A stretch of DNA of 64,000 nucleotides from assembly GCA_948144175.1 (NCBI GenBank), contig CANXME010002278.1, forward strand, positions 1-64,000, given 5' to 3'. Shown piece after piece: positions 7,213 to 52,235 of this stretch. The stretch comes from Closterium sp. NIES-65 (taxonomy: Eukaryota; Streptophyta; Zygnematophyceae; Desmidiales; Closteriaceae). Each line of letters opens with the position of its first letter. Within the stretch, counting starts at the first letter, position 1. Below the pieces are notes generated by a model that did no database searches, was not told the origin of the DNA, and saw nothing but the letters and a program-made list of their open reading frames with translations. A program made the position numbers and the translations under genes.

Positions 7213-7631
7213 GGGGTCAGAGCTGGGCAATCGCAGCCATGCCCCCACGGCCATCTCATTCCCACGCCGTCTCACTCCCACCACCATCTCTGCCATGCAG
7301 GAAATGAATTCTGCTAGGGCAAAAAGAGGTTCACCAGGCATGTTTGCATCCAAGACTTGCTACAGTCCAATCCCTAGTCAATGCAGGCAGTTATGGTTCT
7401 TTGCCACTTCGTCTATGATACGGTATGCGGTGATATATGTAAGTTGCGCAATTTCAACGCACTAGATAAGTTTGCATTTGTTGTAGCATGTGAATGACTA
7501 CCCGCGATGGTAGAGTCTGCAGAGAAATCAAAGTTTTACCTAAAACTCGGTTTATTACTTTGAGTTGCATAAGGAAATATAGTTTGTTACTGTAGGCTTT
7601 CAAAGGCTTGTATGTTACGAGGAGTTCGCTT

Positions 7632-7980
7632 TGTCAGAGGTCCACTGGTGATCCCCGATCGATCCTAGGGAAGGGTTACAGGCACGTTTGCCTGGGGGGT
7701 TATGGGCGCACTGACCCGCTACTGAAACAAGCCCTTTTATCCCAATGGTCTAGTGGTTGGGATTCTGAGATGGTATCAGAGCGAAGGTCTCGGGTTCGAA
7801 TCCCGGTGTATGCACTTCGGGCATCCCAGTGCGGGGGGGGTGTCAGAGGTCCACTGGTGATCCCCGATCGATCCTAGGGAAGGGTTACAGGCACGTTTGC
7901 CTGGGGGGGTTATGGGCGCACTGACCCGCTACTGAAACAAGCCCTTTTATCCCAATGGTCTAGTGGTTGGGATTCTGAGA
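7632..7980 (+). mobile_element. TRIM-like LTR miniature element
   Basis: Two near-identical direct repeats (7632-7770 and 7841-7980, about 139 bp) start with TGTCAGAGGTCC and end with GGGATTCTGAGA. Directly after the left repeat lies TGGTATCAGAGC (7771-7782), the plant-type primer binding site complementary to the 3' end of initiator Met tRNA. Directly before the right repeat lies the purine tract GCGGGGGGGG (7831-7840). The whole is flanked by CGCTT at 7627-7631 and 7981-7985, a 5-bp target duplication. This is the layout of a terminal-repeat retrotransposon in miniature: it has no coding capacity, looks whole and is probably very young. The 3' terminal dinucleotide is GA rather than the usual CA. 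Copies B, D and E of the host repeat show the uninterrupted site. Confidence 0.88.
7743..7806 (+). promoter_or_regulatory. tRNA-Glu-like A box and B box
   Basis: TGGTCTAGTGG (7748-7758) fits a pol III A box and GGTTCGAATCC (about 7794-7804) fits a B box. The 5' half, TCCCAATGGTCTAGTGGTT, resembles tRNA-Glu genes. The expected 3' acceptor strand is missing, so this is not a tRNA gene. The boxes straddle the junction of the left terminal repeat and the internal part of the TRIM-like element. Confidence 0.6.
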
Positions 7981-8525
7981 CGCTTCAAACCGGTTCGGCC
8001 TGTAATTTTGGCCCGAACCACTTCCGAATCGCCACCGCACCTTTCGCCATCTTTCGAGCCTTGTTTACCCTGCGATTCTCGTCTAGCTCGGCTTTGCCTA
8101 TATTTCCCCCCTCCTAGACTTTCCTAGGCCATTCGGTTCTGTAGTTTTCTAGTCTGTAAGCTCCTATCAGTTGGTTACGCCACCATCCAGCAAGCATCGC
8201 CATGGGCTAGGTTGTGTAGGAGTAAGCACCCACGTTCAAGATGGGGAAGTGAGGGAAACAATGGTATGTCAGGTAGTTACTCGATAAACGTTGCGTCGAA
8301 GCGACGAACAGGGGGCGATACTATATTGGCAATCGAAAGAGGTTTGGAGCTTTAAGTAGTAGTGATATTGCTACAGCGTCAGAGCGATCGACAGGCAACG
8401 AACAGAGCGCGACGTACGGCGATGAGAGAGCAAAGGACTATTACACGATGGACGGTCCGCGACAGAGAACGTGACGGACTGCAATGAAAGATCGACGAAC
8501 GGCGGCGACGAAACTGTGAGCGACT

Positions 8526-8651
8526 TGTCAAACTCATATGCTATAGTCTGTGTAGGCTGTAGTGGGGTACGCAATATGGGGTACAACACTTTTAGGTTTT
8601 CCTACTTGTACCCACCTGCTTGCTAGTTCATTCATTCCTCGTTCTTTCACA
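8526..8651 (+). repeat. Short LTR of the plus-oriented copia element
   Basis: This 126-bp sequence begins TG and ends CA and is followed by a primer-site-like TGGTATAGAGC. It is matched in reverse complement by 15065-15189, roughly 94 percent identical by eye. Confidence 0.85.
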
Positions 8652-8769
8652 TGGTATAGAGCAGGTTCCCTAGTGGGAACGTTTCCTAGGGCCCACCGAA
8701 TATCGTTCTGCCCGGAGCGCGCTTCGCCCCTGCCCGAGTCGCGCCCCATGTGCCTACCCTCCCGTCGCG

Positions 8770-9755
8770 TCCCCTGCCCTTAGTAGCCCGTCGCGCTCCC
8801 CTACGGCCCCGTAGCGGCCCCTCTCACGGCCTCTCACGGCCCCTCTCACGGCCCTTCGCGGCCCCTTCAGGCCCCTCGTGGCCCCTTTGCGGCCTCCCTT
8901 CGCGGCCCCTTCGCGGCCCCTTCACGGCCCCTTCGCGGCCCCTTCACGGCCCCTTCGCGGCACCTTCACGGCCCCCTCGCGGCCCCTTCACAGCCCCGTT
9001 GCGGCCCCTTCGCGGCCCCTTTGTGGCCCCCCCTCACGGCTCCCTTCGCGGCCCCTTCACGGCCCCCTCGCGGCCCCCCTCGCGGCCCCTTTGCGGCCCC
9101 TTTGCGGCCCCCCCTCACGGCTCCCTTCACGGCCCCTTCGCGACCTCGCCCCGTCGCCAGTCGCGGCCCCGCCGCGTCGCCCTTGCCTCGTTGCGTCGCC
9201 CCTGCGGGACCCGTGAGGCGCGGCTCCTGTGCGTCGCGACACCCCTGCAGGACCCGCGTGGCGTCTCCCCTGCCCGCCCCGGCGTCCTGCCCTAACCCGC
9301 CCCTGGAGCAGCCCCCACTGCAGCAGCCGCCCCTGGAGCAGCCACCCCTGCAGCAGCCGCCCCCTGGGGCAGCCGCCCTTGCAGCAGCCGCCTCTGGAGC
9401 AGCCGCCACTGTAGCAGCCGCCCCTGGAGCAGCCGCCACTGCAGCAGCCGTCCCTAGAGCAGCCGCCACTGCAGCAGCCGCCCCTGGAGCAGCCGCCCCT
9501 GCAGCAGCCGCCACTGCAGCAGCCGCCCCTGGAACAGCCGCCCCTGCAGCAGCCGCCCCTGGCCCAGCCGCCCCTGCAGCAGCCGCCCTGGAGCAGCCAC
9601 CCCTGCAGCAGCCGCCTCTGGGCCAGCCGCCACTGCAGCAGCCGCCCCTGGAGTAGCCGCCCCTGCAGCAGCCGCCCCTGGAGCAGCCGCCCCTGGAGCA
9701 GCCGCCCCTACAACTGCCACCGCTGGAGCAGCCGCCCCTGCAGCTGCCGCGGAGC
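8770..9755 (+). repeat. Low-complexity tracts inside the copia leader
   Basis: From 8800 to 9160 there are 12-base-like units GGCCCCTTCGCG/GGCCCCTTCACG. From 9300 to 9755 there are units built from CAGCCGCCCCTGGAG and CAGCCGCCCCTGCAG. They give Pro/Arg, Pro/Gln/Leu or Ala-rich frames in every phase, so the open frames here are not evidence of genes. Confidence 0.85.
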
Positions 9756-12700
9756 CCTCGCCCTACAGTGGTAGCGGCCTCGCCGTTGCCGCCGTCGTAC
9801 GCTTGCCCTTCTCGCCACTAGTGAGCACTGCCCTGCCCGTACTGCTGTTACTGCTACTCTTGCTACTACTGCTCTTTCTACTGCTACTGCTGCTCCTAGC
9901 GTGGCCAGATGCAGCTCCAGCGTCGTCCGCGTGAGTCCCTCACCCCCCAACAGCTTCGTGAGTGGTACGCTAGTTGGGGTTATAGGGGTGGCCGTGCTGC
10001 GACTACTGCTATTGCTACTGCGGCTATCACTGCTCCTGCTGCTCCTGGCAGTGGCCAGATGCAGCTCCAGCGACGTCCGCGTGAGTCCCTCACGCCCTAG
10101 CAGCTTCATGAGTGGTACGCTACTTGGGGTTGTCGGGGTGGCCGTAGTGGGAGTCGTCCTGGAGTGAGTAGTTTGGCAGCTGCTTGTAGTGGCCAGGTGC
10201 AGCTGTAGCGTCGTCCGTGCGCGGTCCTTTCGCCCCAGCAGCTTCGTGAGTGGTACGCTGAGCGTGACGGGTCATGGGGTACTGCTCGCTGTCCGTACGT
10301 CATTCGCACTGGTGCTCGGACTGGTCAGCCTTCCGGGACATTTGGTCACGCAGAGTTCCGCTGCTTCGCCCGTCTGAGCGACGCCTTGGGTACGGAGTTT
10401 GGTGACGCGGCTGAGCTCCCCGACTGGGTGGAGCTTCTTAGGCTGCGGGTAGATGTCTATACTCTTGACTATGATGCTATCTTCACTGCCATGTATGCAT
10501 TGCCTACTAGTGATGAGGGTGACTGTTACCTGTGTGTTCCGCCTGACCCGGGCATTGAGGCTTCTGCTCTAGGTGCTGGTGAGGCTGCTGCTCTAGGTGC
10601 TAGTGCGTCTGCTGCCCTAGGTGCTGGTGAGTCTGCTCTCTCAGGTACCACGTCGGCTCAGGCCTTACACACCTTCACCCTTGACTCGGGTGCTTCCCGC
10701 TCCTTCTTTCGAGACCGCACCACGCTTACGCCGCTTAGTCGGCCGGTTGCGGTCTCCCCGGCGGACCCCTCTGGGGGTCCTGTCCTTGCTAGCTTCTCCA
10801 CTGTCTTACCATGCCTTGCAGCCCCCTATGGCACCCTGTCAGGTCTCTACCTCCCCTCGTTCTCTACGAACTTGGTGAGTGGTGCTGATCTACAGGATCG
10901 GGAGGTTGACTAGTTCACTCCTGCGAGTCAGCGGGTGACCCACTATACGTGTGCTCGCATGGGCCAACACTTGGTCACGTTTACCCGTCGGCCGGGGTCA
11001 AGCCTATACACACTGACTACTGAGTCTCCTCCGGTTGATGCGTCTGGTCAGGTAGCTAAGTCGAGTCAGGTGTTTGCTGCAGCGTCCAGGTCTGGTCCTG
11101 AGTCTGCTCCCTGCTCGTGTCGTCTTGTGTCCCACCAGACTCTCCTTTGGCACCACCGCCTTGGTCACCCCTCCTTGCCTCGTCTCCGAGGCATGGCCTC
11201 CCGTGTCCTTGTCTCTGGTCTCCCCCGGTCCCTCCCTCCCCTCCCTCCGGGGCCTGCCCCTACCTGCGTTCCCTGCATCGAGGGGCGGCAGCGCGTCGCA
11301 TAGAGGCTGCCCTCCAGACTCTTCACATGAACGTGTGGGGCCCCGCCCGCGTCCGTGGCCAGGGTCACGAGCATTACTTCCTGTTGGTGGTTGACGACTA
11401 CTCGCGTTACACCACGGTGTTCCCCTTGCGCAGCAAGGGTGACGTCACTAAGGTGTTGATCGACTGGATCCGCGCGGCTCGTCTCCAGCTCAGAGAGAGT
11501 TTCGGCTCGGACTTTCCAGTTCTGCGTCTGCACTCTGATAGAGGCAGGGAGTTTTCCTCTGCCCGTCTGGGAGCCTTCTGTCGTGCACAGGGCATTCGCC
11601 AGACCTTCACGCTTCCGACCTCTCCACAGCAAAATGGGAATGCTGAGCGCCGCATTGGCATGGTCATGGACGTCGCTCGTACGTCCATGATCCATGCGGC
11701 TGCTCCCCATTTTCTGTGGCCGTTTGCGGTTCAGTACGCAGCACATCAGCTCAACCTTCAGCACCGGGTCTCCTTGCCAGAGACCTCCCCCACCTTGCGG
11801 TGGACGGGGAAGGTTGGCGATGCGTCTGCGTTTCGGGTCTGGGGATCTCAGGCGTTTGTCCGCGACTTGTCTGCGGACAAGCTGCCCCCCCGTGCTTTTC
11901 CCTGCGTCTTCCTTGGCTTCCCCCCTGACGCGCCTGGTTGGCAGTTTTACCACCCCACCTCGCGCCGTGTTCTGTCCTCTCAGGACGTCACCTTTGATGA
12001 GTCGGTGCCTTACTACCGTCTCTTCCCCTACCGCACTGCGCCCCTCCCCCCGCCGCCGCTCTTCCTTGCGCCAGGTCCTCCCCTGGTAGTCCCTCTCCCC
12101 CCTCGGGGTCCTGCCCCGTCAGGTGTGTCCCAGGTAGACGCAGTCAAGCCTGTCGAGGTAGCTGTTGTCAACACCTGACTCGACGCAGCTACCTGACCAG
12201 ACGCAGCAGCCGGAGGAGACTCAGTAGTAACTGTGTACAGGCTCGACCCTTGCCGACGGTTGAACGTGGCCAAGTGTCGGCCTGTCCGAGCACACGTACA
12301 GTGGGTCACCCGCTGACTCGCAGGAGTGAACTGGTCAACCCCCCTATCCTGTAGGTCAGCTCCACTCACCAAGTTCGTAGAGAACGAGGGGAGGTAGAGA
12401 CCTGACAGGGTGCCAGAGGGGGCTGCTGGGCACGGTAAGACAGTGGAGAAGCTAGCAAGGACAGGACCCCCAGAGCGGTCCGCCAGGGAGACCGCAACCG
12501 GCCGACTAAGCGGCGTAAGCGTGGTGCGGTGGCGAAAGAAGGAGCGGGAAGCACCCGAGTCAACGGTGAAGGTGTGTAAGGCCTGAGCCGACGTAGTACC
12601 TGAGAGAGCAGACTCACCAGCACCTGGGGCAGCAGACGCACTAGCACCTGGGGCAGGAGCCTCACCAGCACCTAGAGCAGCAGCCTGAATGCTCGGGTCA

Positions 12701-14099
12701 GGCGGAACACACAGGTAACACTCACCCTCATCACTAATAGTCACAGCATACATGGCAGCAAGAATAGCATCATAGTCAAGATCAAAGATGGCCACCCCCG
12801 CCCTAGACAGATCTCCCCAGCGAGGGATCTCTGACGCCTTAGGGAACTGGTGACGCCACGTGTCCGTCAGGCGGCCAAAGCAGCGTTGGGTGGAGTGCGG
12901 GCCCCCGCACTGCTCACCAACGCGGTCACCGGTACGGAGAACGTAAGTGCAGGGACCAGTACCCCCACTGCGCTGACGCGCAACGTACCACTCACGAAGC
13001 TGGTGAGGGGACCGGGTCTCACGACTGCGCTGCTGCTGCTGGCGCGGACCACCACCAGACCCACTCCTCTGCGTAGAGTCGCGAGCAGCTCCACCGCCGC
13101 CGCCGCCGCCTCCGCCACCTCCGCCACTTCCGCTCCCTCCGCCACCACCGCCGCCTCCTCCGCCTCCACTGCTGCCACCGCCGCCGCCACCCCCGCCACC
13201 ACTCCCACCACCACCCCCACCCCCTCCACTGCCTCCACCGCCACCTCCACCGCCCCTGCTAGCCCCTCCAGCTCCCTTGCCCCCCTTGCCCTTGCCGGTG
13301 CGGCGCCTCTTGCTAGGGGCAGACGCAGCGCCGACCCCGTAGAAACCAACGAGGTCGGCAGCAGCAGTAGAAGCAACAAAGGGCAAGAGGGGGGAAGGGG
13401 AACACCCCTCAAAGACGGGGGTGCGAGGGTCACCACGAGAGGCTCCTACAGCTACTATTCTCTTCTCTACTGCTAGGAGGCGCTCCTCGAGGAGTTCAGC
13501 GGTGAGAGTGGTGGGGCAAACTGAGAGAATGTGGTCCCTTACTAAGCGAAGAGAGTCAGGGAGCCAGGTGATTATGTAGTAGAGGGTGATGTACATGGGG
13601 GGGGGGTTCTTGGCCCAGAACTCAGCAGGGAGCGCAGCGCGGTAGTGAGTGACACTAGTGCGGAGGTGCGTAATGAGGTCAGCGATTGTGGGAAAGGCAG
13701 CAAGGTCAGGGAAGAGGTACGGTAGCATGAGGTGGCTCAGTGCAGCTACAACGTCGTACAATGTCTGAGCACTCTTGTACTGGCTAAAGTGTGCACGCTA
13801 ATGGGTTGGTAAGTGGGGACGCACAGCAAGACGGGCAGCAGCATCGCGTGTCGCCCACTGTGAGCAAACAGTGCTGTCAGCAGTAGCAGGCGAGGCAGGG
13901 GAGGCACCAGAGGTGAGGTCGAACAGAGAGAGGTCGTCTGTCCTATCGCACTGGAGGAACAGCTGGAGGTCATCGACCCAGACCTCAAAGTCAACAGCAC
14001 GACCCTCAGTGTCAAAGGTAAGAACACTGGGGGTAGCCATGACTGCAGAGGTCTAGCAAGGAGTGAGCTCACCAGTACGTGTAAGTAGGGCCGGGGCGC

Positions 14100-14990
14100 G
14101 CCGGTAGGACTGGTAGCGCCTCGACGGCAGGGCGGCTCGGCGGCTCAGCTGCTGGACGGCTCGGCTATCGGGCGGCTCGGCGGCTCGGCTGCTGGGCGGC
14201 TCGACGGTCGGGCGGCCCGGCGGTTCGGCTGCTGGGCGGCTCGGCTGTCAGGCGGCTCGGCGGCTAGGCGGCTCGGCTACTCTGCTGCTGGGCGGCTCGG
14301 CGGCTCTGCTGCTAGGCTGCTTGGTAGAGGCGGCGTTGGGGCCGCTAGGGGCAGCGACAGGGCCGCTTAGGGAGGGGAGCGGCGACGGGGCCGTGTAGTG
14401 GCGGCGACGGGGCCGCGTAGGAAGGGGGGGCGGCGACGGGGCCGCTAGGGGCGGCGATAGGGCCGCGTAGAGGCGGCGTCGGGGCCGCTTAGAGGCGGCG
14501 ACGGGGCCGCTTAGGAGCGGCAACGGGGCCGCTTAGGGGCGGGCGGCGACGGGGTCGCGTAGGGTGGGAGGCGGCGACGGGGCCGCTGGGGGCGGCGACG
14601 GGGCCGCTATGGGCGGCGACGGGGCCGCGTAGGGTGAGAGGCGGCAACGGGGCCGATAGGGGCGGCGACGGGGCCGCTAGGGGCGGCGACGGGGCCGCGT
14701 AGGGGTGGCGACGGGGCCGCGTAGGGGCGGGGACTGGGCCGCGTAGGGTAAGAGGCGGCGACGGGCCGCTAGGGGCGGCGACGGGGCCGCTAGGGGCGGC
14801 GACGGGGCCGCGTAGGGGCGTCGACGGGGCCGCGTAGGGGCGGCGACGGGGCCGCGTAGGATAAGAGGCGGCGACGGGGCCGCTAGGGGCGGCAACGAGG
14901 CCGCGTGGAGGGCGGCAACTAGGCCGCTAGGGGCCACTAGGGGACTGGAAAGGGCGGCAAAAAAGGCGCGCCTCGGGCAGGAGCGATTGG
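14100..14990 (-). repeat. GC-rich tandem leader of the minus copia element
   Basis: On the plus strand, 14110-14320 is made of GGCGGCTCGGCGGCTCGG-like units and 14340-14930 of GGCGGCGACGGGGCCGCTAG-like units. It is the counterpart of the GGCCCC-rich leader at 8770-9160. Confidence 0.85.
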
Positions 14991-15064
14991 CGCTTCGGTC
15001 AGAGAGGAAAATTTCAGTGGTGGGCCCAAAGAAGCGTTCCCACTAGGGAACCTGCTCTATACCA

Positions 15065-15189
15065 TGTGAAGAATGAGGAATGAATGAACTAGCAAGCAAG
15101 TGAGTACAAGTAGGAAAACCTAGAAGTGTTGTACCCCATATTGTCTACCCCACTACAGCCTACACAGACTATAGCATATGAGTTTGACA
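15065..15189 (-). repeat. Short LTR of the minus-oriented copia element
   Basis: Inverted partner of 8526-8651, with outer end TGTCAAACTC when read on the minus strand. Flanking bases outside the two outer ends (CGACT on the left, TACCT on the right) do not match, so there is no shared target duplication. Confidence 0.85.
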
Positions 15190-16640
15190 TACCTGTGGGC
15201 TGCTGCAGTTGCCGAGAACGACCTCGCCTTCAACGTCAGCAAGTCAAAGTCGATCCGGGCCTTCGTTGACGCGGTGATCGTGTATGCTAAACCGTACACC
15301 CTCCCCACCCCATACAAGGTGTCCAGCCCGTTGCTCGAGAAGCTGAAGGCGGGCTCGGAGGACCTTGTGCGGCCGCTAACGGACAGCTCGAAGACAAGCG
15401 GGTGCACGCTCTCCATCGATGGGTGGACATGCATCGAATCCTGCGGTTTGGTGTGTGTAATCGCGCTTAATGACACTGCACCCGTCATCATCGACATCGT
15501 CGATTCGAAGACCGCGAAAAAAAACCAGGGACTACTTGGCGGGTCTAATTGAGGGAGCGATCAAGACGGTGGGGCCGAAGCATGTCGTCCAAGTCGTGAT
15601 GGACAACGCTTCGAAGAACAAGAACGCCGCCAACAAGCTACGCCTGGAGTATCCGCATATCTTCTTCACCAACTGCGCCGCCCACTGCCTAGATCTCATG
15701 TTGCACGACATCGGCAAAATCCCTGCTATAAAGCACGTCCTTGCGCTGGTGCACAGCGTAGTGATGATGATCAAAGGCTCCGCTTCAGCCGTCGTGTTGT
15801 TCCGTGAGCTTTTTACCAAGCTCTCGTTGGTGCGGCTGGGTGCAACGAGATTCGGCACCCAGGTCATCATGCTCGGCAGGTTCCTGGAGGTGAAGCGCGC
15901 GTTAAGAGTGATAGTAATCAGCGACCGAGGGGAGGGCAGGCTGGGCTCTCACAATGCCCGTTGGGCAGCAACGACCTTGGTGGAGGCGGGGCGCATGATG
16001 GATGCGGAATGGTGGTTCCCGTTTGGTAGGGATGTGCAGGCGCCCCAAGGCTTGGCTGTGACGTCACTCTCACAGCCAGTCACCTCCTCCGAGGTGGAGC
16101 GCTATTGGTCGGCGCTGGCACGTGTGCAGAGTCGGGACCGGAACTGCCTCACGGCGCAGAAGATGACTGACGTCACCTTCGTCGCCTTCACCCGGCGGGC
16201 CTGTGATGCCTATGATCGAAAGGCAGCGCTGAGCTCCAAGCTCTATTCGGACCTGGGCAACGGCACCCTCAGAGAGGCTGCCATCAACCCGGCCGAAGTG
16301 GAGGAGGAGGAAGGGGATGCTGAAGAGGAGGGACAAGTGGAGGAGGAGGAATACACCATTGATTGGTCGGAATTTGGAAGCATCGGCAAGAAGAGGAAAG
16401 GGAAGGCGGGTGAGTCATCTAAAGGGAAGAAGAAGGGGAAGGGCAACGGTGCATGCAGTGGAGAGGGGAAAGGAAAAGCACGGGATGCGGAAGAGGAAAG
16501 AGGAGGCGGAAGACAGCGGTGGGGAGGAGGAAGAGCCTGCCCACAATCCCAAGGGACGATATGCATATGCCTGGGATTGCAACGACGGTTCAAGTGGGGA
16601 GGAGGAAGAGGAGGACAAGGACAAAGAAGAGTATGAGTTG
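15178..16640 (+). pseudogene. Decayed hAT transposase
   Basis: The first block (15178-15550) carries a DUF659-like start: PLTDSSKTSGCTLSIDGWTC. The frame shifts at an A8 run (15517-15524) and continues with VVQVVMDNASKNKNAANKL, TNCAAHCLDLMLHDIGKIP and RLGATRFGTQVIMLGRFLEV, classic hAT/DUF659 sequence. After about 15900 it jumps to a C-terminal dimerisation-like part (SSEVERYWSALARVQSRDRN), so a middle portion seems deleted. The tail is Glu/Lys/Gly-rich. The N-terminal zinc finger is missing because the copia LTR abuts at 15189. Hence this is a non-functional remnant of a plain DNA transposon, related to but distinct from the one at 34096-36234. Confidence 0.85.
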
Positions 16641-33699: not shown

Positions 33700-36600
33700 T
33701 GCAAGCCTCAAGCGTATAAACGCTTATCGTATATATGCAATCTTATATATGCTGTAAGCTATAGGGACGGGTTTGGAAATCCGCTTTTTCAGGCAGAAAA
33801 AAAACTTCCCGGGCAGGGTCAAAAAAAGCCGCGGGGGGGGGGGGGGGGGATATGGGGCCTGAAGTTTCAGAGATATTTTTTTTCCACATTACACATATAC
33901 CACGGCCTACACATAAGTACTGTCATCATTACTATCATCACTACCATCACTACTATCATCACTTACCATCATCATTTACCATCACTACTATCATCACTAC
34001 TCCATCACGACCATCACTTCTCTCTAAGACAAGCTACGTACTACTCCTTAGGACTAGTCGCCTACAACAAGCCACATTTGCCCCCTCTAGTTAGCTTACT
34101 CGTCTTCAAGGATGTCGTCTTTGCCTTCCTCCTCATCCTCTCCCTTCGTCTCGTCTTCTAGCCCATTGTATCCCGCTGGGATTGGAGGCTCCGCTCCAAT
34201 CCCGGGCACCACATGTGGCAAGACATCGGCGCACGTATGCCAGTTGCGCACAACATTCCAGTTGTGCACAACATAGACCAAGTCCCTGCACTTGGCGGAT
34301 CCGAGCCTGTTTCGACGTGCGGTGTGGACGGCATCTCACGAGGACCATCCACGCTCACAAGGTGAGGCTGACACGGCCTGAGACAACACCCGTACCGCGA
34401 GCTCTGCCACTCGAGGGGCATCAGTCCCATTCCACTGCCACCACTTCACCATGCTATACTTTCCCTCTTTCACCAGCTTCCTCTGTGCCACGGCTTCCGG
34501 CATCCCAAAAGAACCCTTCATGTCAAGGAACGCCCTCAGACCGTCCCCCAGCTCAAGTAAGATGTCGCACACGTCATCCCCCCCATCCCCGCGGCTCGCA
34601 AGGAACTCGGCCTGCTGGCTGATGAACGCCTTGAAGACTTTCGTGCACTCGGGATCAATGCCGAAAATATCTTCCTCCTGATTCGCGGGGTTGAGGATGC
34701 GGCCAGCGACATGCGTGGCGCATGAGAGGCTGCCGTCCCAACCGTCTCTGAGGATGCGGCGGATCTTGTCCTTGTCCCCGTCGCTCAGCTGCTCCTCGTC
34801 CGCATCGAGCAAGCCCCCCACGTCCTCAGTCAACTACAGCATCAAATCGTACAGCCTCCCCATCATCCCCACGGCATGCCCGTCCGTCTGCCTCATCACC
34901 TTAAAGGGCAGCTTCAGCAGGGCGACAAAGAACTCGGCCGTCTTCCACCAGGCTGCATCATGGATCAGCGCACTGAACCCGTCACACGATTTCTTCCGGT
35001 CCCCTACCGCCCACTCCTTCCAGCCCTCGCTCGTCACCATGTTGGTAAGGCTGCCGCGCATCGCACATAGCCGGGATATGGCTATGTAGTTGGTCCCGAA
35101 TCGGGTCCCAGCCGGCTTTAGCGCCTGCAGAACCTTCCCCTCCACCAATTCCGGCTTCCACAGGTACCCTCGGGTCCAGTGGTGGTTGCGGACGAAGCTA
35201 GATATCTCCCCTCCCTTGTCGACCACCGGCTTAGCCCATCCCATCTTTCCGACATCTTCCATGAGAAGATCCAATACGTGAGTGGCGCACGGCACATCCT
35301 GAATGTGCGGCCACTCCCATATGAGCTGCTTCACCGCCACCGCATAGTTCGACCCCCCGTCCATGCAGAACGCAACAACGTTCTCTGGACCCACTTCCTC
35401 CACCACGGGCCTAAGAATCCTTGCCACGTAACCTCCGGTTTTCCTCTCCATGTTGCAGTCAATACAGTCGGTGAAGACGGCGCCGGAATCGTTTACGATA
35501 AGCACGTTCGCCTGCGGCCTGCCGTTGCGGTCCGTCATCATGTTGGACGAAACCGTCATGCCCGTCCTCTTCCAGCTTGCCTTAATGCCCACCAAATCCT
35601 GCTCGATTCCGTTGTGACACGAGAGAAGGCCAGCACCACCGATGTATTTCCTCTTGGGAGGGACTTAGTCGGCGCCGGCGCGCTTGACGAGGTTCAATGC
35701 ATTGACCATCAGAGGATGGTCAATGTGGCGCTCGGGGATATGGAGGGCGGCCCAAGCAAGCGCAAGTGCCTCGTCCGCTTCTCTCTTTCTTGCAGTCGCA
35801 TCCCCCTCAAGGTAATCGGTGATGCGCGCCCGCTTCACACCATTAGCCTTGACCGCGGCAACCGCTTCAGCTGCTGCCCGCCTCTTCTCTTCGGCCGCAG
35901 CAGTCTTTGCCTCGTATTTTGCGCGCATGGCCAAGCGCACATCTTGCGGCACATCCTTGCAAAGCACCACTTCACGGCGTTTCATCCCCTTCCACGACGT
36001 AAAGTGTTGCGCGCATCGGATGGCAGCATCAGTGTAGACGTTGCTGCAGAACTTGCACTCGTACTGCTGAGCTTTTCCCTCGACCCTCTTGATGATGCGG
36101 AAGTGCTTGAAGACGCCATGGTCAACATCGGGTAGATACTCCCGTGCCTCGGTTAGAAGAGTTTGTGAACTGCCAACGGTGGTAACTGACGGTGGCGTTA
36201 GAGGAGAGGTAGTAGTCGTCGACATAGGCACCATGCGCTAGGGAATGCCTAGTGCTCTGCTGGTAGCGAGAGAAGACCTAATGAGTTGGATGTTGGGGGC
36301 GTGGTTGTTTTATAGCGAGTTGATTGTGGGAGTGGGAAGATGGCCAACAAAAATTGGAGAGGTGTTGGTTGCGAAGGGTTTGAATGCGTTACTGATAGTG
36401 AACACCAAAATGTGAGGGAGCGTGCAAGCGCGACTTGACGAACTTGACTTTCCATTTGCAACACGAACTTTCAACCCACGTCCACGTTAGCACACAGCGC
36501 GGACGTGCCATCTGACCCCGCCAATGTCTTCGTCATGCAATTCCGAAGCGAACTGTATAGGTTGAAATTTTCTGGCCGGGCTGCCCCAAAAAAAAATTGG

Positions 36601-46275: not shown

Positions 46276-46428
46276 GCGTCTCCCACGAACTTGAGGTCCT
46301 CAGAGGTGTTAGGAGAAGAGCAGCAAGGAGGAATCCTTTCCACAGGAGGATCGATCACTGAACCATAGTCTCAGCCGCACCCTCACCGTTCGCCCACACT
46401 CCGCCGCCATTGCCTCTTCCCAGCCATG

Positions 46429-46650
46429 CACTCCAGGTGACTGCAGGTGTGCACTCCAGGTGACTGCAGGTGTGCCCTCCAGGTGACTGCAGGTGTGCAC
46501 TCCAGGTGACTGCAGGTGTGCCCTCCAGGTGACTGCAGGTGTGCACTCCAGGTGACTGCAGGTGTGCACTCCAGGTGACTGCAGGTGTGCACTCCAGGTG
46601 ACTGCAGGTGTGCCCTCCAGGTGACTGCAGGTGTGCCCTCCAGGTGAATG
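46429..46650 (+). repeat. 23-bp minisatellite CTCCAGGTGACTGCAGGTG
   Basis: About 9.5 copies (CACTCC/CCCTCC variants, ending TG). Each unit has two CAGGTG motifs, both donor-like. Confidence 0.95.
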
Positions 46651-46726
46651 CTAAAACCCACTCGGAGCACCGGTGGCTGCACTGCTGGTCCATATCCCCT
46701 TCTTCCTCCCCCCCCACCCCTCCCTT

Positions 46727-49700
46727 GACCCATTCCCTCAGTCCCTTGACCCATTCCCTCAGTCCCTTGACTCATTCCCTCAGTCCCTTGACCCATTCCC
46801 TCAGTCCCCTGACCCATTCCCTCAGTCCCCTGACCCATTCCCTCAGTCCCCTGAGACATTCCCTCAGTCCCTTGACCCATTCCCTCAGTCCCTTGACCCA
46901 TTCCCTCAGTCCCTTGACCCATTCCCTCAGTACCTTGACCCATTCCCTGAGTCCCTTGACCCATTCCCTGAGTCCCTTGACCCATTCCCTCAGTCCCTTG
47001 ACCCATTCCCTGAGTCCCTTGACCCATTCCCTGAGTCCCTTGACCCATTCCCTCAGTCCCTTGACCCATTCCCTGAGTCCCTTGACCCATTGCCTAAGTC
47101 CCTTGACCCATTCCCTTAGTCCCTTGACCCATTCCCTCAGTCCCTTGACCCATTCCCTGAGCCCCTTGACCCATTCCCTGAGTCCCTTGACCCATTCCCT
47201 GAGTCCCTTGACCCATTAATTTTGTCCCTTGACCCATTCCCTGAGTTCATTGACCCATTCCCTGAGTCCCTTGACCCATTCCCTCAGTCCCTCGACTAAT
47301 TCCCTCAGTCCCTTGACCCATTCCCTGAGTCCCTTGACCCATTCCCCGAGTCCCTTGACCCATTCCCTGAGTCCCTTGACCCATTCCCTCAGTCCCTTGA
47401 CCCATTCCCTCAGTCCCTTGACCCATTCCCTGAGTCCCTTGACCCATTCCCTGAGTCCCTTGACCCATTCCCTGAGTCCCTTGACCCATTCCCTCAGTCC
47501 CTTGACCCATTCCCTGAGTCCCTTGACCCATTCCCTCAGTCCCTTGACCCATTACCTCACTCCTTTGACCCATTCCCTCAGTCCCTTGACCCATTCCCTG
47601 AGTCCCTTGACCCATTCCCTCAGTCCCTTGACCCATTTCCTCAGTCCCTTGACCCATTCCCTCAGTCCCCTGAGACATTCCCTCAGTCCCTTGACTTGAC
47701 CCATTCCCTGAGTCCCTTGACCCATTCCCTCAGGCCCTTGACCCATTCCCTCAGTCCCTTGACCCATTCCCTCAGTCCCTTGACCCATTCCCTGAGTCCC
47801 CTGACCCATTCCCTCAGTCCCCTGAGACATTCCCTGACTCCCTTGACCCATTCCCTGAGTCCCTTGACCCATTCCCTCAGTCCCTTGACCCATTCCCTCA
47901 GTCCCTTGACCCATTGCCTAAGTCCCTTGACCCATTCCCTTAGTCCCTTGACCCATTCCCTCAGTCCCTTGACCCATTCCCTGAGCCCCTTGACCCATTC
48001 CCTGAGTCCCTTGACCCATTCCCTGAGTCCCTTGACCCATTAATTTTGTCCCTTGACCCATTCCCTGAGTTCATTGACCCATTCCCTGAGTCCCTTGACC
48101 CATTCCCTGAGTCCCTTGACCCATTCCCTCAGTCCCTTGACCCATTCCCTCAGTCCCTTGACCCATTCCCTCAGTCCTTTGACCCATTCCCTCAGTCCCT
48201 TGACCCATTGCCTCAGTCCCTTGACCCATTCCCTCAGTCCCTTGACCCATTCCCTCAGTCCCTTGACCTATTCCGTCAGTCCCTTGACCCATTCCCTCAG
48301 GCCCTTGACCCATTCCGTCAGTCCCTTGACCCATTCCCTCAGTCCCTTGACCCATTCCCTCAGTCCCTTGACCCATTCCCTCAGTACCTTGACCCATTCC
48401 CTGAGTCCCTTGACCCATTCCCTGAGTCCCTTGACCCATTCCCTCAGTCCCTTGACCCATTCCCTGAGTCCCTTGACCCATTCCCTCAGTCCCCTGACCC
48501 ATTCCCTCAGTCCCCTGAGACATTCACTCAGTCCCTTGACCCATTCCCTCAGTCCCTTGACCCATTCCCTCACTCCCTTGACCCATTCCCTCAGTCCCTT
48601 GACCCATTCCCTGAGTCCCTTGACCCATTCCCTCAGTCCCTTGACCCATTCCCTCAGTCCCTTGACCCATTCCCTCAGTCCCTTGACCCATTTCCTCAGT
48701 CCCTTGACCCATTCCCTGAGTCCCTTGACCCATTCCCTCAGGCCCTTGACCCATTCCCTCAGTCCCTTGACCCATTCCCTCAGTCCCTTGACCCATTCCC
48801 TCAGTCCCCTGACCCATTCCCTCAGTCCCCTGAGACATTTTCTCAGTCCCTTGACCCATTCCCTCAGTCCCCTGAGACATTCCCTCAGTCCCTTGACCCA
48901 TTCCCTCAGTCCCTTGACCCATTCCCTGAGTCCCTTGACCCATTCCCTCAGTCCCTTGACCTATTCCCTCAGTCCCTTGACCCATTCCCTCAGTCCCTTG
49001 ACCCGTTCTCTCAGTCCCTTGATCCATTCCCTCAGTCCCTTGACCCATTCCCTCAGTCCCTTGACCCATTCCCTGAGTCCCTTGACCTATTCCCTCAGTC
49101 CCTTGACCTGTTCCCTCAGTTTTTTGACCGATTCCCTTAGTCCCTTGACCCATTCCCTCAGTCCCTTGACCCATTCCCTCAGTCCCTTGACCCATTCCCT
49201 CAGTCCCTTGACCCATTCCCTGAGTCCCTTGACCCATTCCCTCAGTCCCTTGACCCATTCCCTCACTCCCTTGACCCATTCCCTCAGTCCCTTGACCCAT
49301 TCCCTGAGTCCCTTGACCCATTCCCTCAGTCCCTTGACCCATTCCCTCAGTTCCTTGACCCATTCCCTCAGTCCCTTGACCCGTTCCCTCAGTCCCTTGA
49401 CCCATTCCCTCAGTCCCTTGACCCATTCCCTCAGGCCCTTGACCCATTCCCTCAGTCCCTTGACCCATTCCCTCAGTCCCTTGACCCATTCCCTCAGTCC
49501 CCTGACCCATTCCCTCAGTCCCCTGAGACATTCCCTCAGTCCCTTGACCCATTCCCTCAGTCCCTTGACCCATTCCCTCACTCCCTTGACCCATTCCCTC
49601 AGTCCCTTGACCCATTCCCTGAGTCCCTTGACCCATTCCCTCAGTCCCTTGACCCATTCCCTCAGTCCCTTGACCCATTCCCTCAGTCCCTTGACCCATT

Positions 49701-50862
49701 CCCTCAGTCCCTTGACCCATTCCCTGAGTCCCTTGACCCATTCCCTCAGGCCCTTGACCCATTCCCTCAGTCCCTTGACCCATTCCCTCAGTCCCTTGAC
49801 CCATTCCCTCAGTCCCCTGACCCATTCCCTCAGTCCCCTGAGACATTCCCTCAGTCCCTTGACCCATTCCCTCAGTCCCCTGAGACATTCCCTCAGTCCC
49901 TTGACACATTCCCTCAGTCCCTTGACCCATTCCCTGAGTCCCTTGACCCATTCCCTCAGTCCCTTGACCTATTCCCTCAGTCCCTTGACCCATTCCCTCA
50001 GTCCCTTGACCCATTCCCTCAGTCCCTTGACCCATTCCCTCAGTCCCTTGACCCATTCCCTCAGTCCCTTGACTTTACCCATTCCCTCAGTCCCTTGACC
50101 CATTCCCTCAGTCCCTTGACCCATTCCCTCAGTCCCTTGACCCATTCCCTCAGTCTCTTGACCCATTCCGTCAGTCCCTTGACCCATTCCCTCAGTCCCT
50201 TGACCCATTCCCTAAATCGCTTGACCCATTCCCTCAGTCCCTTGACCCATTCCCTCAGTCCCTTGACCCATTCCCTCAGTCCCTTGACCCATTCCCTCAG
50301 TCCCTTGACCCATTCCCTCAGTCCCTTGACCCATTCCCTCAGTCCCCTGACCCATTCCCTCAGTCCCCTGACCTATTCCCTCAGTCCCCTGACCCATTTC
50401 CTCAGTCCCCTGAGACATTCCCTCAGTCCCTTGACCCATTCCCTGAGTCCCTTGACCCATTCCCTGAGTCCCTTGACCCATTCCCTGAGTCCCTTGACCT
50501 ATTCCCTCAGTCCCTTGACCCATTCCCTCAGTCCCTTGACCCATTCCCTCAGTCCCTTGACCCATTCCCTTAGTCCCTTGACCCATTCCCTTAGTCCCTT
50601 GACCCATTCCCTTAGTCCCTTGACCCATTCCCTTAGTCCCTTGACCCATTCCGTCTGTCCCTTGACCCCTTCCCTCAGTCCCTTGACCCATTCCCTCAGT
50701 CCCTTGACCCATTCCCTCAGCCCCTTGACCCATTCCCTCAGTCCCTTGACCCATTCCCTCTGCCCCTTGACCCATTCCCTCTGTCCCTTGACCCATTCCC
50801 TCAGTCCCTTGACCCATTCCCTCAGTCCCAGACCCATTCCCTCAGTCCCTTGACCCATTCCC
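46727..50862 (+). repeat. Giant 21-bp minisatellite, about 197 copies
   Basis: The unit begins CCCTTGACCCATTCCC and ends TCAGT or TGAGT. Since 21 is a multiple of three, several frames stay open: SLDPFPQ and LTHSLSP forward, GQGTEGM and LREWVKG reverse; the longest is 681 codons at 48053-50098. Variant units (CCTGAGACATTCC, TAATTTTGTCCC, CATTGCCTAAG) recur at fixed distances, so there is higher-order structure: a block at 47089-47300 recurs about 824 bp further on (47911-48124), and another pattern recurs at about 1.0 kb. Translation is not supported. Confidence 0.98.
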
Positions 50863-51926
50863 GCAACTGGACGCGTCTGGATGCAACTGGACGCGTCTGG
50901 ACGCAACTGGACGCGTCTGGACGCAACTGGACGCGTCTGGACGCAACTGGACGCGTCTGGACGCAACTGGACGCGTCTGGACGCAACTGGACGCGTCTGG
51001 ACGCAACTGGACGCGTCTGGACGCAGCTGGACGCGTCTGGACGCAACTGGACGCGTCTGGACGCAACTGGACGCGTCTGGACGCAGCTGGACGCGTCTGG
51101 ACGCAGCTGGACGCGTCTGGACGCAATTGGACGCGTCTGGACGCAACTGGACGCGTCTGGACGCAACTGGACGCGTCTGGACGCAACTGGACGCGTCTGG
51201 ACGCAACTGGACGCGTCTGGACGCAACTGGACGCGTCTGGACGCAACTGGACGCGTCTGGACGCAACTGGACGCGTCTGGACGCGTCTGGACGCGTCTGG
51301 ACGCAACTGGACGCGTCTGGACGCAACTGGACGCGTCTGGACGCAACTGGACGCGTCTGGACGCAACTGGACGCGTCTGGACGCAAGTGGACGCGTCTGG
51401 ACGCAACTGGACGCGTCTGGACGCAACTTGACGCGTCTGGACGCAACTTGACGCGTCTGGACGCAACTGGACGCGTCTGGACGCAACTGGACGCGTCTGG
51501 ACGCAACTGGACGCGTCTGGACCGCAACTGGACGCGTCTGGACGCAACTGGACGCGTCTGGACGCAACTGGACGCGTCTGGACGCAACTGGACGCGTCTG
51601 GACGCAACTGGACGCGTCTGGACGCAACTGGACGCGTCTGGACGCAACTGGACGCGTCTGGACGCAACTGGACGCGTCTGGACGCAACTGGACGCGTCTG
51701 GACGCAACTGGACGCGTCTGGACGCAACTGGACGCGTCTGGATGCGTGTGGACGCGTCTGGACGCGTCTGGACGCGTCTGGACGCAACTGGACGCGTCTG
51801 GACGCAACTGGACGCGTCTGGACGCGTCTGGACGCAACTGGACGCGTCTGGACGCAACTGGACGCGTCTGGACGCAACTGGACGCGTCTGGACGCAACTG
51901 GACGCGTCTGGACGCGTCTGGACGCT
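50863..51926 (+). repeat. 20-bp minisatellite GACGCGTCTGGACGCAACTG
   Basis: About 53 copies, directly abutting the 21-bp array. Each unit holds the palindrome GACGCGTC and three CpGs. Frames stay open in all phases and repeat every 20 residues (NWTRLDATGRVWTQLDASGR on plus, RRVQLRPDASSC on minus). Confidence 0.98.
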
Positions 51927-52014
51927 GTGCCCTCAGCTCCCTACGTGCCACCATGCGTTGAAGTTTTGAGGTGCAACATTGATAGTATTATTCCTTCCCA
52001 TCCCCGTCCCTGTG

Positions 52015-52235
52015 CCTCCCATCTCTGTCTCGCCTCAGATGGGCACCATCTGTGGCTTCAGCGCACCTTGTGTAGATGAGCATTCTTTCAAACCGCACTG
52101 CACTGCACCGCATCTCCTTCTTCCTCCGCGCCTTTCCACCAACCCTGTCTTCATACCTCTGCCTCTCTTTCTTATCCCAGATCGGCATCTGCTGTGGCTT
52201 CAGCACTCCCTACGTGGCAGCACAAGTCAAAGTGA
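52015..52235 (+). other. Duplicated exon-like fragment (GFSTPYV)
   Basis: Two copies follow AG borders: CTCAG-ATGGGCACCATCTGTGG (52036) reading MGTICGFSAPCVDEH, and CCCAG-ATCGGCATCTGCTGTGG (52179) reading IGICCGFSTPYVAAQV. A CCCTACGTGCC piece at 51939 may be a third. It is probably one exon duplicated with its acceptor. Family not recognised. Confidence 0.4.

Follow-up and report, generated by a model that had tools for sequence, protein, structure and literature searches.

A recently inserted TRIM with a putative split tRNA-type promoter and a likely Copia helper

The described systems closest to the element reported here are other very short LTR elements. Helenus (TRIMp3; Kojima 2024), in the accessible part of its description, combines tRNA-derived A and B boxes with a primer site (PBS), a polypurine tract (PPT) and, in plants and fungi, 5-bp target site duplications (TSDs) (PMC10886601). 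The boxes are conserved though most encode no functional tRNA, Copia is the presumed helper of the fungal elements, and the Selaginella Helenus has an LTR of 120 and an internal region of 85 (PMC10886601). Cassandra is 565-860 bp long, carries a 5S-type promoter in its LTR and is described in these sources as having an unknown autonomous partner (PMC7215508, PMC10886601). Its PBS is TGGTATCAGAGC (PMC7215508), and its RNAs have an 18-bp duplication at both ends (PMC10886601). The SMART element FRetro129 measures 292 bp and has a TATA-like LTR motif and a 5-bp TSD; its candidate Copia partner, whose short LTRs are unrelated save for an 11-bp motif, was recognized because the internal regions are 96% identical (PMC3281118). 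Larger relatives are reported for just 11 of 289 TRIM subfamilies in the part of the survey by Gao et al. that treats them, and tandem TRIMs are already known (PMC4717578).

The window, a stretch of 64,000 nucleotides (contig C1980:1-64000) from an assembly of 874 Mb in 2400 contigs, contains a complete 349-bp TRIM at 7632-7980. Sequence comparison delimits a 5' LTR of 139 bp (7632-7770, + strand), which runs from TGTCAG to CTGAGA, and a 3' LTR of 140 bp (7841-7980, +). The PBS TGGTATCAGAGC (7771-7782, +), which is of the iMet type and consistent with that of plants, lies directly 3' of the left LTR. It opens an internal region of 70 bp (7771-7840, +) that closes with a polypurine tract of eight G (7833-7840, +) directly 5' of the right LTR. 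The TSD CGCTT, a feature without strand, is present at 7627-7631 and 7981-7985. With short direct LTRs, a total length below 1 kb and no coding region, the element has the make-up of a TRIM. The original prediction had described near-identical repeats of about 139 bp separated by 70 bases, together with a PBS, a G-rich tract and CGCTT flanks, and all of these are found where it placed them. It had also called the element very small even for a TRIM. The size is indeed small, but smaller ones are on record, namely the 292-bp SMARTs and the Selaginella Helenus, and the element is not the smallest known. Elsewhere in the window, a long minisatellite tract at 46383-52079 is open in several frames (SLSPLTH / TRLDATGRVW repeats), and frames matching DUF659 lie at 15461-16636 and 34834-35664, the first of which also matches a hAT C-terminal dimerisation region.

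The two LTRs are 99.3% identical and differ by a single G in a G-run. This difference may be a sequencing error, since the copy of the locus on contig C1990 (L007) has two LTRs of 139 bp and an internal region of 69. The alignment of L007 to L001 contains 0 mismatches and 14 gap openings over the entire 3.35 kb, which points to an assembly with redundant contigs and probable homopolymer indels. The genome-wide counts given below are inflated by this redundancy and deflated by exact matching.

The element belongs to a large family of dispersed copies. At least 42 full-length matches at 99-100% identity were obtained with the 349-bp query (40 of 1184 first-look candidates were scored). A scripted parse gave 47 complete copies, 40 of which are flanked at these same ends by perfect 5-bp TSDs; among 9400 shuffled pairings, 23 had them. 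The 47 are distinct by their 20-bp flank, with L011 and L036 looking like one insertion met twice. Of the imperfect rows, L041 and L077 have a TSD with one mismatch each, and L054 is a three-LTR tandem with a perfect TSD (TGCGG) at its outer LTR. The remaining ones comprise a mis-parsed start (L074), part of a tandem (L010) and the two rows of an inverted pair (L024). The prediction that a genome search would return further copies with their own TSDs and with ends corresponding to 7632 and 7980 was thereby confirmed. Exact LTR tails ending in CTGACA or CTGAGA number 6995 in the genome (control 0), and tails followed by TGGTATCAGAG number 2500 (control 0). The roughly 2000 tails beyond two per element may be solo LTRs or broken or diverged copies.

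Three LTR types can be distinguished. Type A is that of the window copy and has an internal region of about 70, while types B and C (TGTCAGTAGAGC / TGTCAGTAGATC) have internal regions of about 93. The window copy and a young group end in CTGAGA and the older copies in CTGACA, so the canonical CA end has been lost in the window copy. The TSD is perfect in 17 of 18 young copies, the two LTRs are identical in 14, and a single 5' LTR sequence is common to 15; the sole exception to a scripted perfect TSD is the tandem L054. Among 28 older copies, 22 have perfect TSDs and 1 has an identical LTR pair, and one further copy, with a perfect TSD, ends in CCGACA. It looks as though a recent burst of insertion took place and the CA end turned to GA within the young group, in keeping with the predicted recent origin of a family with near-identical members. 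The GAGA ending accounts for 14 of the 100 tails listed out of 6995; the young loci themselves were retrieved by similarity to the window copy and do not give its share of the family. LTRs usually have TG...CA ends, a feature that does not strictly define TRIMs and that the window copy lacks. The GA end is not taken to exclude a TRIM because TGGA is among the motifs of the LTR_retriever library in the part of the source that lists them (PMC8220671). The young burst still inserts with perfect TSDs despite its GA-ending LTRs (17 of 18 by script). The element at 7632-7980 is best explained as a non-autonomous TRIM, a recent insertion from a large family. The original interpretation is supported yet incomplete, as it misses the tRNA-type boxes around the boundary between LTR and PBS and a candidate Copia helper.

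The end of the LTR, the PBS and the start of the internal region together look like a tRNA-type Pol III promoter without an acceptor stem. An A box TGGTCTAGTGG (7746-7756, +), which fits TRGYNNARNGG, lies in the LTR end, and a B box GGTTCGAATCC (7793-7803, +) lies in the internal region, starting 23 bases past the LTR end at 7770. The B box matches GGTTCGANTCC exactly and is the sole such match on both strands of the 64 kb, where the pair of boxes also occurs a single time. In 20000 dinucleotide shuffles of the element, a B box appeared in 16 and the pair in 0. The parse of LTR-internal units, filtered for the presence of the PBS and a portion of the LTR tail, gave 54. The A box is exact in 47 of them, the B box in 52 and both in 45, at a spacing of 47 (32 units) or 44 (13 units); by comparison, the boxes of L147, a tRNA-Gly gene in the same genome, are 48 apart. 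A gap of at least 11 between PBS and B box was found at just 14 places.

The PBS is located between the boxes, where the anticodon arm of a tRNA would be. With the A box as the reference for numbering, tRNA positions 27-43 correspond to an anticodon-arm mimic, TCTGA-GATGGTA-TCAGA (7764-7780, +), built from the LTR end and the PBS. At this register, and with G-U taken as a pair, all 5 pairs of the anticodon stem are present in 47 of 50 copies; when the LTR end is shuffled, the same holds for 230 of 20000 sequences. On these terms the T stem is complete (5 of 5) in 42 of 48 copies, and the D stem has 3 of 4 pairs in each of the 50. The acceptor stem is absent from the tRNA-like region. ARAGORN calls no tRNA at the element, and the Rfam tRNA model (cmscan) gives 15.7 bits for 7745-7807 (E 2.5; gathering score 29). 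The Rfam listing for a type-C copy has no tRNA line and omits one lower-scoring match of the same clan. The minimum free energy (MFE) fold of the predicted RNA (219 nt) retains the hairpin of LTR end and PBS and lacks a tRNA-like D arm and T arm (z -0.51; 61 of 200 shuffles fold as well). Because the fold lacks these arms and is no better than shuffles, the evidence supports promoter boxes and not a folded tRNA.

The same arrangement sets the element apart from the known families. It shares A and B boxes, PBS, PPT, 5-bp TSDs and a similar size with Helenus, its boxes being assigned as tRNA-derived against the negative ARAGORN result and the weak Rfam score. The tRNA-like sequence of Helenus lies inside the LTRs, whereas in the present element the LTR holds just the A box, and the B box follows in the internal region, on the far side of the PBS. 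As the definition of Helenus is not matched in this respect, we file the element as a putative split-promoter variant of Pol III TRIMs; it is set apart from the Selaginella Helenus-1_SMo by description, not by consensus. With Cassandra it shares a proposed Pol III-type organization, the same PBS, a predicted R that is likewise very short and tandem LTR-internal-LTR arrays; Cassandra differs in its larger size and in having a 5S-type promoter within the LTR. Retrozymes carry a hammerhead ribozyme in the LTR. Neither a hammerhead nor 5S rRNA, the mark of Cassandra, was among the 4 Rfam matches at E up to 10 in 7500-8100.

The tRNA-Gly gene L147, called by ARAGORN, contains the A-box letters of the element, an agreement that exists by construction since the gene was found via a search for these letters together with tRNA-Gly letters. 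That search gave 51 matches, and of the 4 sites fetched, one (L147) is an ARAGORN tRNA-Gly and 3 are not tRNA genes. In local alignments to L147, the tRNA-like region scores 28 for the window copy, 33 for L084 and 38 for L075, against maxima of 22, 24 and 23 in 500 shuffles; the share of the A box in these scores is by construction, that of the B box and the spacing is not. Scores against L145, L146 and L148 are 24-27 (shuffle maxima 21-25) and reflect little beyond the A box used in the search. As the tRNA source, tRNA-Glu was considered first and rejected: of its 35 matches 12 were fetched, and each proved to be an LTR variant in which ARAGORN calls no tRNA.

Fixed differences between the subfamilies are absent from the promoter blocks of the units compared. 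We aligned 38 units (6 of 17 young A, 15 other A and 17 B/C), omitting 11 young A units and 5 mosaics. Fixed differences between A and B/C occupy 0 of 65 columns in the promoter blocks, defined as R-U5 and the stretch from the B box to TGCAC, and 14 of 132 columns elsewhere, from which the PBS is excluded (p 0.0056). A single deletion accounts for three of the 14, and two insertions do not enter the count. A 27-base insertion sits at the edge of the B-box block, and assigned to the block it gives p 1.7e-5 the opposite way (LTR-only p 0.057). Within the LTR, the comparison of fixed differences is not significant (0 of 42 against 6 of 97, p 0.18). Because the PBS and, in part, matches to the B box or internal region served to select the rows, invariance of the PBS is built in, as is some of the B-box conservation.

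A TRIM of this anatomy could also be an ordinary Pol II-transcribed element mobilised by Copia, with its tRNA-like boxes a relic or a coincidence. The negative ARAGORN result, the weak Rfam score and the overall fold, which is not tRNA-like, would agree with that account, as would the plant TRIM survey, which in the part available reports 5S sequence in no family besides Cassandra (PMC4717578). Coincidence is harder to reconcile with two boxes at tRNA-like spacing, which none of the 20000 shuffles reproduced, with anticodon- and T-stem pairs that are in register in most of the 50 parsed copies, and with promoter blocks that lack fixed differences between subfamilies. We regard Pol II transcription as unlikely, though a serious contender, and continue with the tRNA-type promoter.

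Pol III starts 11-18 nt upstream of the A box, and CAA is a preferred start in plant tRNA genes. With the A box at 7746, this rule predicts a start within 7728-7735, and a CAA at 7728-7730 would mark the RNA 5' end. The predicted R AAGCCCTTTT, 10 nt long, would then occupy 7729-7738 (+), including a TTTT at 7735-7738, and its 3' counterpart 7939-7948 (+), where the TTTT at 7945-7948 is a candidate Pol III terminator. The resulting RNA would be about 220 nt long, with an R of 10 nt, a U5 of 32 nt and a U3 of 98 nt. All 45 units with both boxes exact have a TTTT just 5' of the A box and no second TTTT in the predicted transcript; being related by descent, they amount to one observation rather than 45. 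Against the predicted start, CAA is absent from some LTR variants, and the TTTT near the start might hinder initiation. A search for 5'-truncated copies that would mark the RNA start gave 1972 matches, among which the places listed are LTR length variants. In L069, a truncated LTR starts near the predicted start and is fused to an inverted helper-like LTR.

A candidate helper was revealed by hybrid elements. A search for the PBS plus B box gave 2009 matches genome-wide (control 0), and among the first 20 loci, L071, L079 and L087 have a different LTR 5' of the PBS. Downstream, they continue with a TRIM LTR (two TRIM units in L079), after which come another PBS-like site and a leader containing GGGCCCACC. 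Loci L087 and L089 are one Copia copy with 129-bp LTRs, in which a single unit of PBS, TRIM internal region and TRIM LTR lies between the Copia 5' LTR and its own PBS, TGGTATAGAGC. The LTR pair is identical over 126 bp (126 of 128 compared bases), with a difference at the last-but-one base, and the TSD GCCGA is present on both sides. The open frame of 1713 aa matches RVT_2 (7.9e-49), SH3_retrovirus, rve and gag_pre-integrs. Its gag presumably resembles Closterium proteins.

From these sequences, the likely helper is this Copia family with its unrelated LTRs. The original prediction had proposed a search for autonomous relatives sharing the terminal repeat; a helper candidate was found, but the repeat is not shared. 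BLASTN at E 0.001 gives no match between the helper LTR and the TRIM LTRs of L001-L008; both start with TGTCAGA. Neither an A box nor a B box is present in three helper LTR/leader pieces. The PBS TGGTATAGAGC, one base short of the full iMet PBS of the TRIM, occurs in the helper-type Copias L014 and L087 and in the window at 8526-8760 and 15188 (minus strand). At this site, other Copia leaders read TGGTATCGAGC (in L071) or TGGTAACAGAGG (in L079). The first of the two window sites belongs to a partial LTR (8526-8614, +) of a helper relative, a neighbor outside the TRIM that by sequence comparison is 76% identical to the L087 helper LTR. The region 8526-15188 contains Copia-type pieces in opposing orientations that represent nested or inverted elements: LTRs at 8526 (+) and 15188 (-), an rve match at 11102-12178 (+) and a gag-like frame, identified by eye, at 12028-13797 (-).

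The TRIM LTR tail followed by TGGTATAGAGC gives 43 matches genome-wide, some of them redundant (control 0). A TRIM internal region and G-run precede the joint in 30 of these (L071, L087, L092 and 27 others), with the helper LTR seen further up in 3 of the 30. Another 11, L093 among them, follow other sequence, so that here the TRIM LTR occupies the place of the Copia 5' LTR; shared flanks reduce these 11 to 8 distinct contexts. In the remaining two, L123 and L134, which have the same flank, helper LTR sequence precedes the joint. It stands in place of the TRIM U3, 5' of the TRIM tail and helper PBS; these loci are possibly a recombinant LTR or a truncated unit. A Copia leader motif lies downstream in 12 of 12 joints checked, out of 39 not fetched as long loci (GGGCCCACC in 11 and GAGCCCACC in 1). 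We read the joints as hybrids rather than TRIMs with a one-base PBS deletion, because the latter would mostly follow genomic flank and lack the leader. At C2188:5060683, 5069379 and 5076267 (L136-L138), the same junction of TRIM LTR and Copia with an identical 5' flank occurs three times, 7-9 kb apart, which is a tandem duplication or array of a hybrid element.

The joints at the PBS match the product that an exchanged second strand transfer would give. Five mosaic TRIM units that combine an LTR of type B/C with an internal region of type A could have arisen by the same route or have other origins. If the hybrids instead formed by DNA recombination between integrated copies rather than by reverse transcription, they would say nothing about co-packaging. 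Tandem TRIMs elsewhere are ascribed to illegitimate recombination as well as to retrotransposition in the relevant part of one study (PMC11899658), and L087 is the one hybrid read at both ends. Recombination would however have to act on TRIM and helper sequences that have only PBS letters in common at the joints (TGGTAT, AGAGC), and joints at the same place recur with different leader variants. The L087 hybrid also has matching TSDs and nearly identical LTRs, and template switching is a proposed route to fused LTR elements in the part of the literature consulted (PMC1950507). For the helper part of the model, we consider recombination improbable and favor exchange during reverse transcription. 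As in the fusions described there (PMC1950507), two parents would have fused before insertion; unlike in those, a TRIM is joined to a Copia, with the PBS as the point of fusion. The likeness to SMART lies in the tiny size, the 5-bp TSD and a Copia partner with unrelated short LTRs, the difference in how the partner was found, there via internal-region identity and here via hybrids.

The Copia hybrids joined at the PBS also bear on whether the family is a tRNA-derived SINE, spread by a LINE, whose repeats are a tandem dimer. Such a SINE would share the A and B boxes, the small size and the tandem units. Its ends would be of the LINE type and independent of LTR borders, whereas those of the element are fixed at the LTR borders with 5-bp TSDs, and it has a PBS and a PPT. 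A genome-wide search for copies ending at the RNA 3' TTTT gave 0 matches; its pattern is built to detect about one quarter of such ends. This origin is extremely improbable, and the element is most readily understood as a TRIM.

We conclude that the element is probably a recent non-autonomous TRIM with a split tRNA-type promoter and a Pol III RNA, moved by a Copia helper. In the proposed cycle, TFIIIC and TFIIIB would assemble on the A box at the U5 end of the LTR and on the internal B box. Pol III would start at about 7729 and stop at the TTTT of the 3' LTR, giving the RNA of about 220 nt with the 10-nt R at each end. This RNA would enter the particles of the Copia helper, where tRNA-iMet would prime at the PBS in its anticodon-arm position. 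The LTRs would be rebuilt by the normal strand transfers, and the Copia integrase would insert the cDNA with a 5-bp duplication. The anatomy, the copies with their TSDs, the spaced boxes and the hybrids with a Copia are observed, while the use of Pol III, the ends of the RNA and co-packaging are deduced from them.

In the open-access literature, with subscription papers, supplements and Repbase outside this scope, no account of a promoter interrupted by the PBS came to light. Tandem TRIMs, template-switch fusions and Copia partners with unrelated LTRs are known, as far as the sources cover them (PMC4717578, PMC1950507, PMC3281118). We lean toward the fuller reading that a single tRNA-type promoter is cut by the boundary between LTR and internal region, with the PBS doubling as the anticodon arm and the promoter thereby coupled to the priming site. 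The helper would be a Copia whose LTRs are unrelated, and particle sharing would be recorded in the hybrids joined at the PBS. The A and B boxes lie on opposite sides of the LTR end, so a solo LTR or a lone 3' LTR lacks a complete promoter. Transcription of this kind would be confined to complete or tandem elements, because it depends on sequence from both the LTR and the internal region. The split promoter thus predicts that complete elements are transcribed and solo LTRs are silent. The helper came to light through natural hybrids and not through LTR similarity, an approach that could also be applied to Cassandra.
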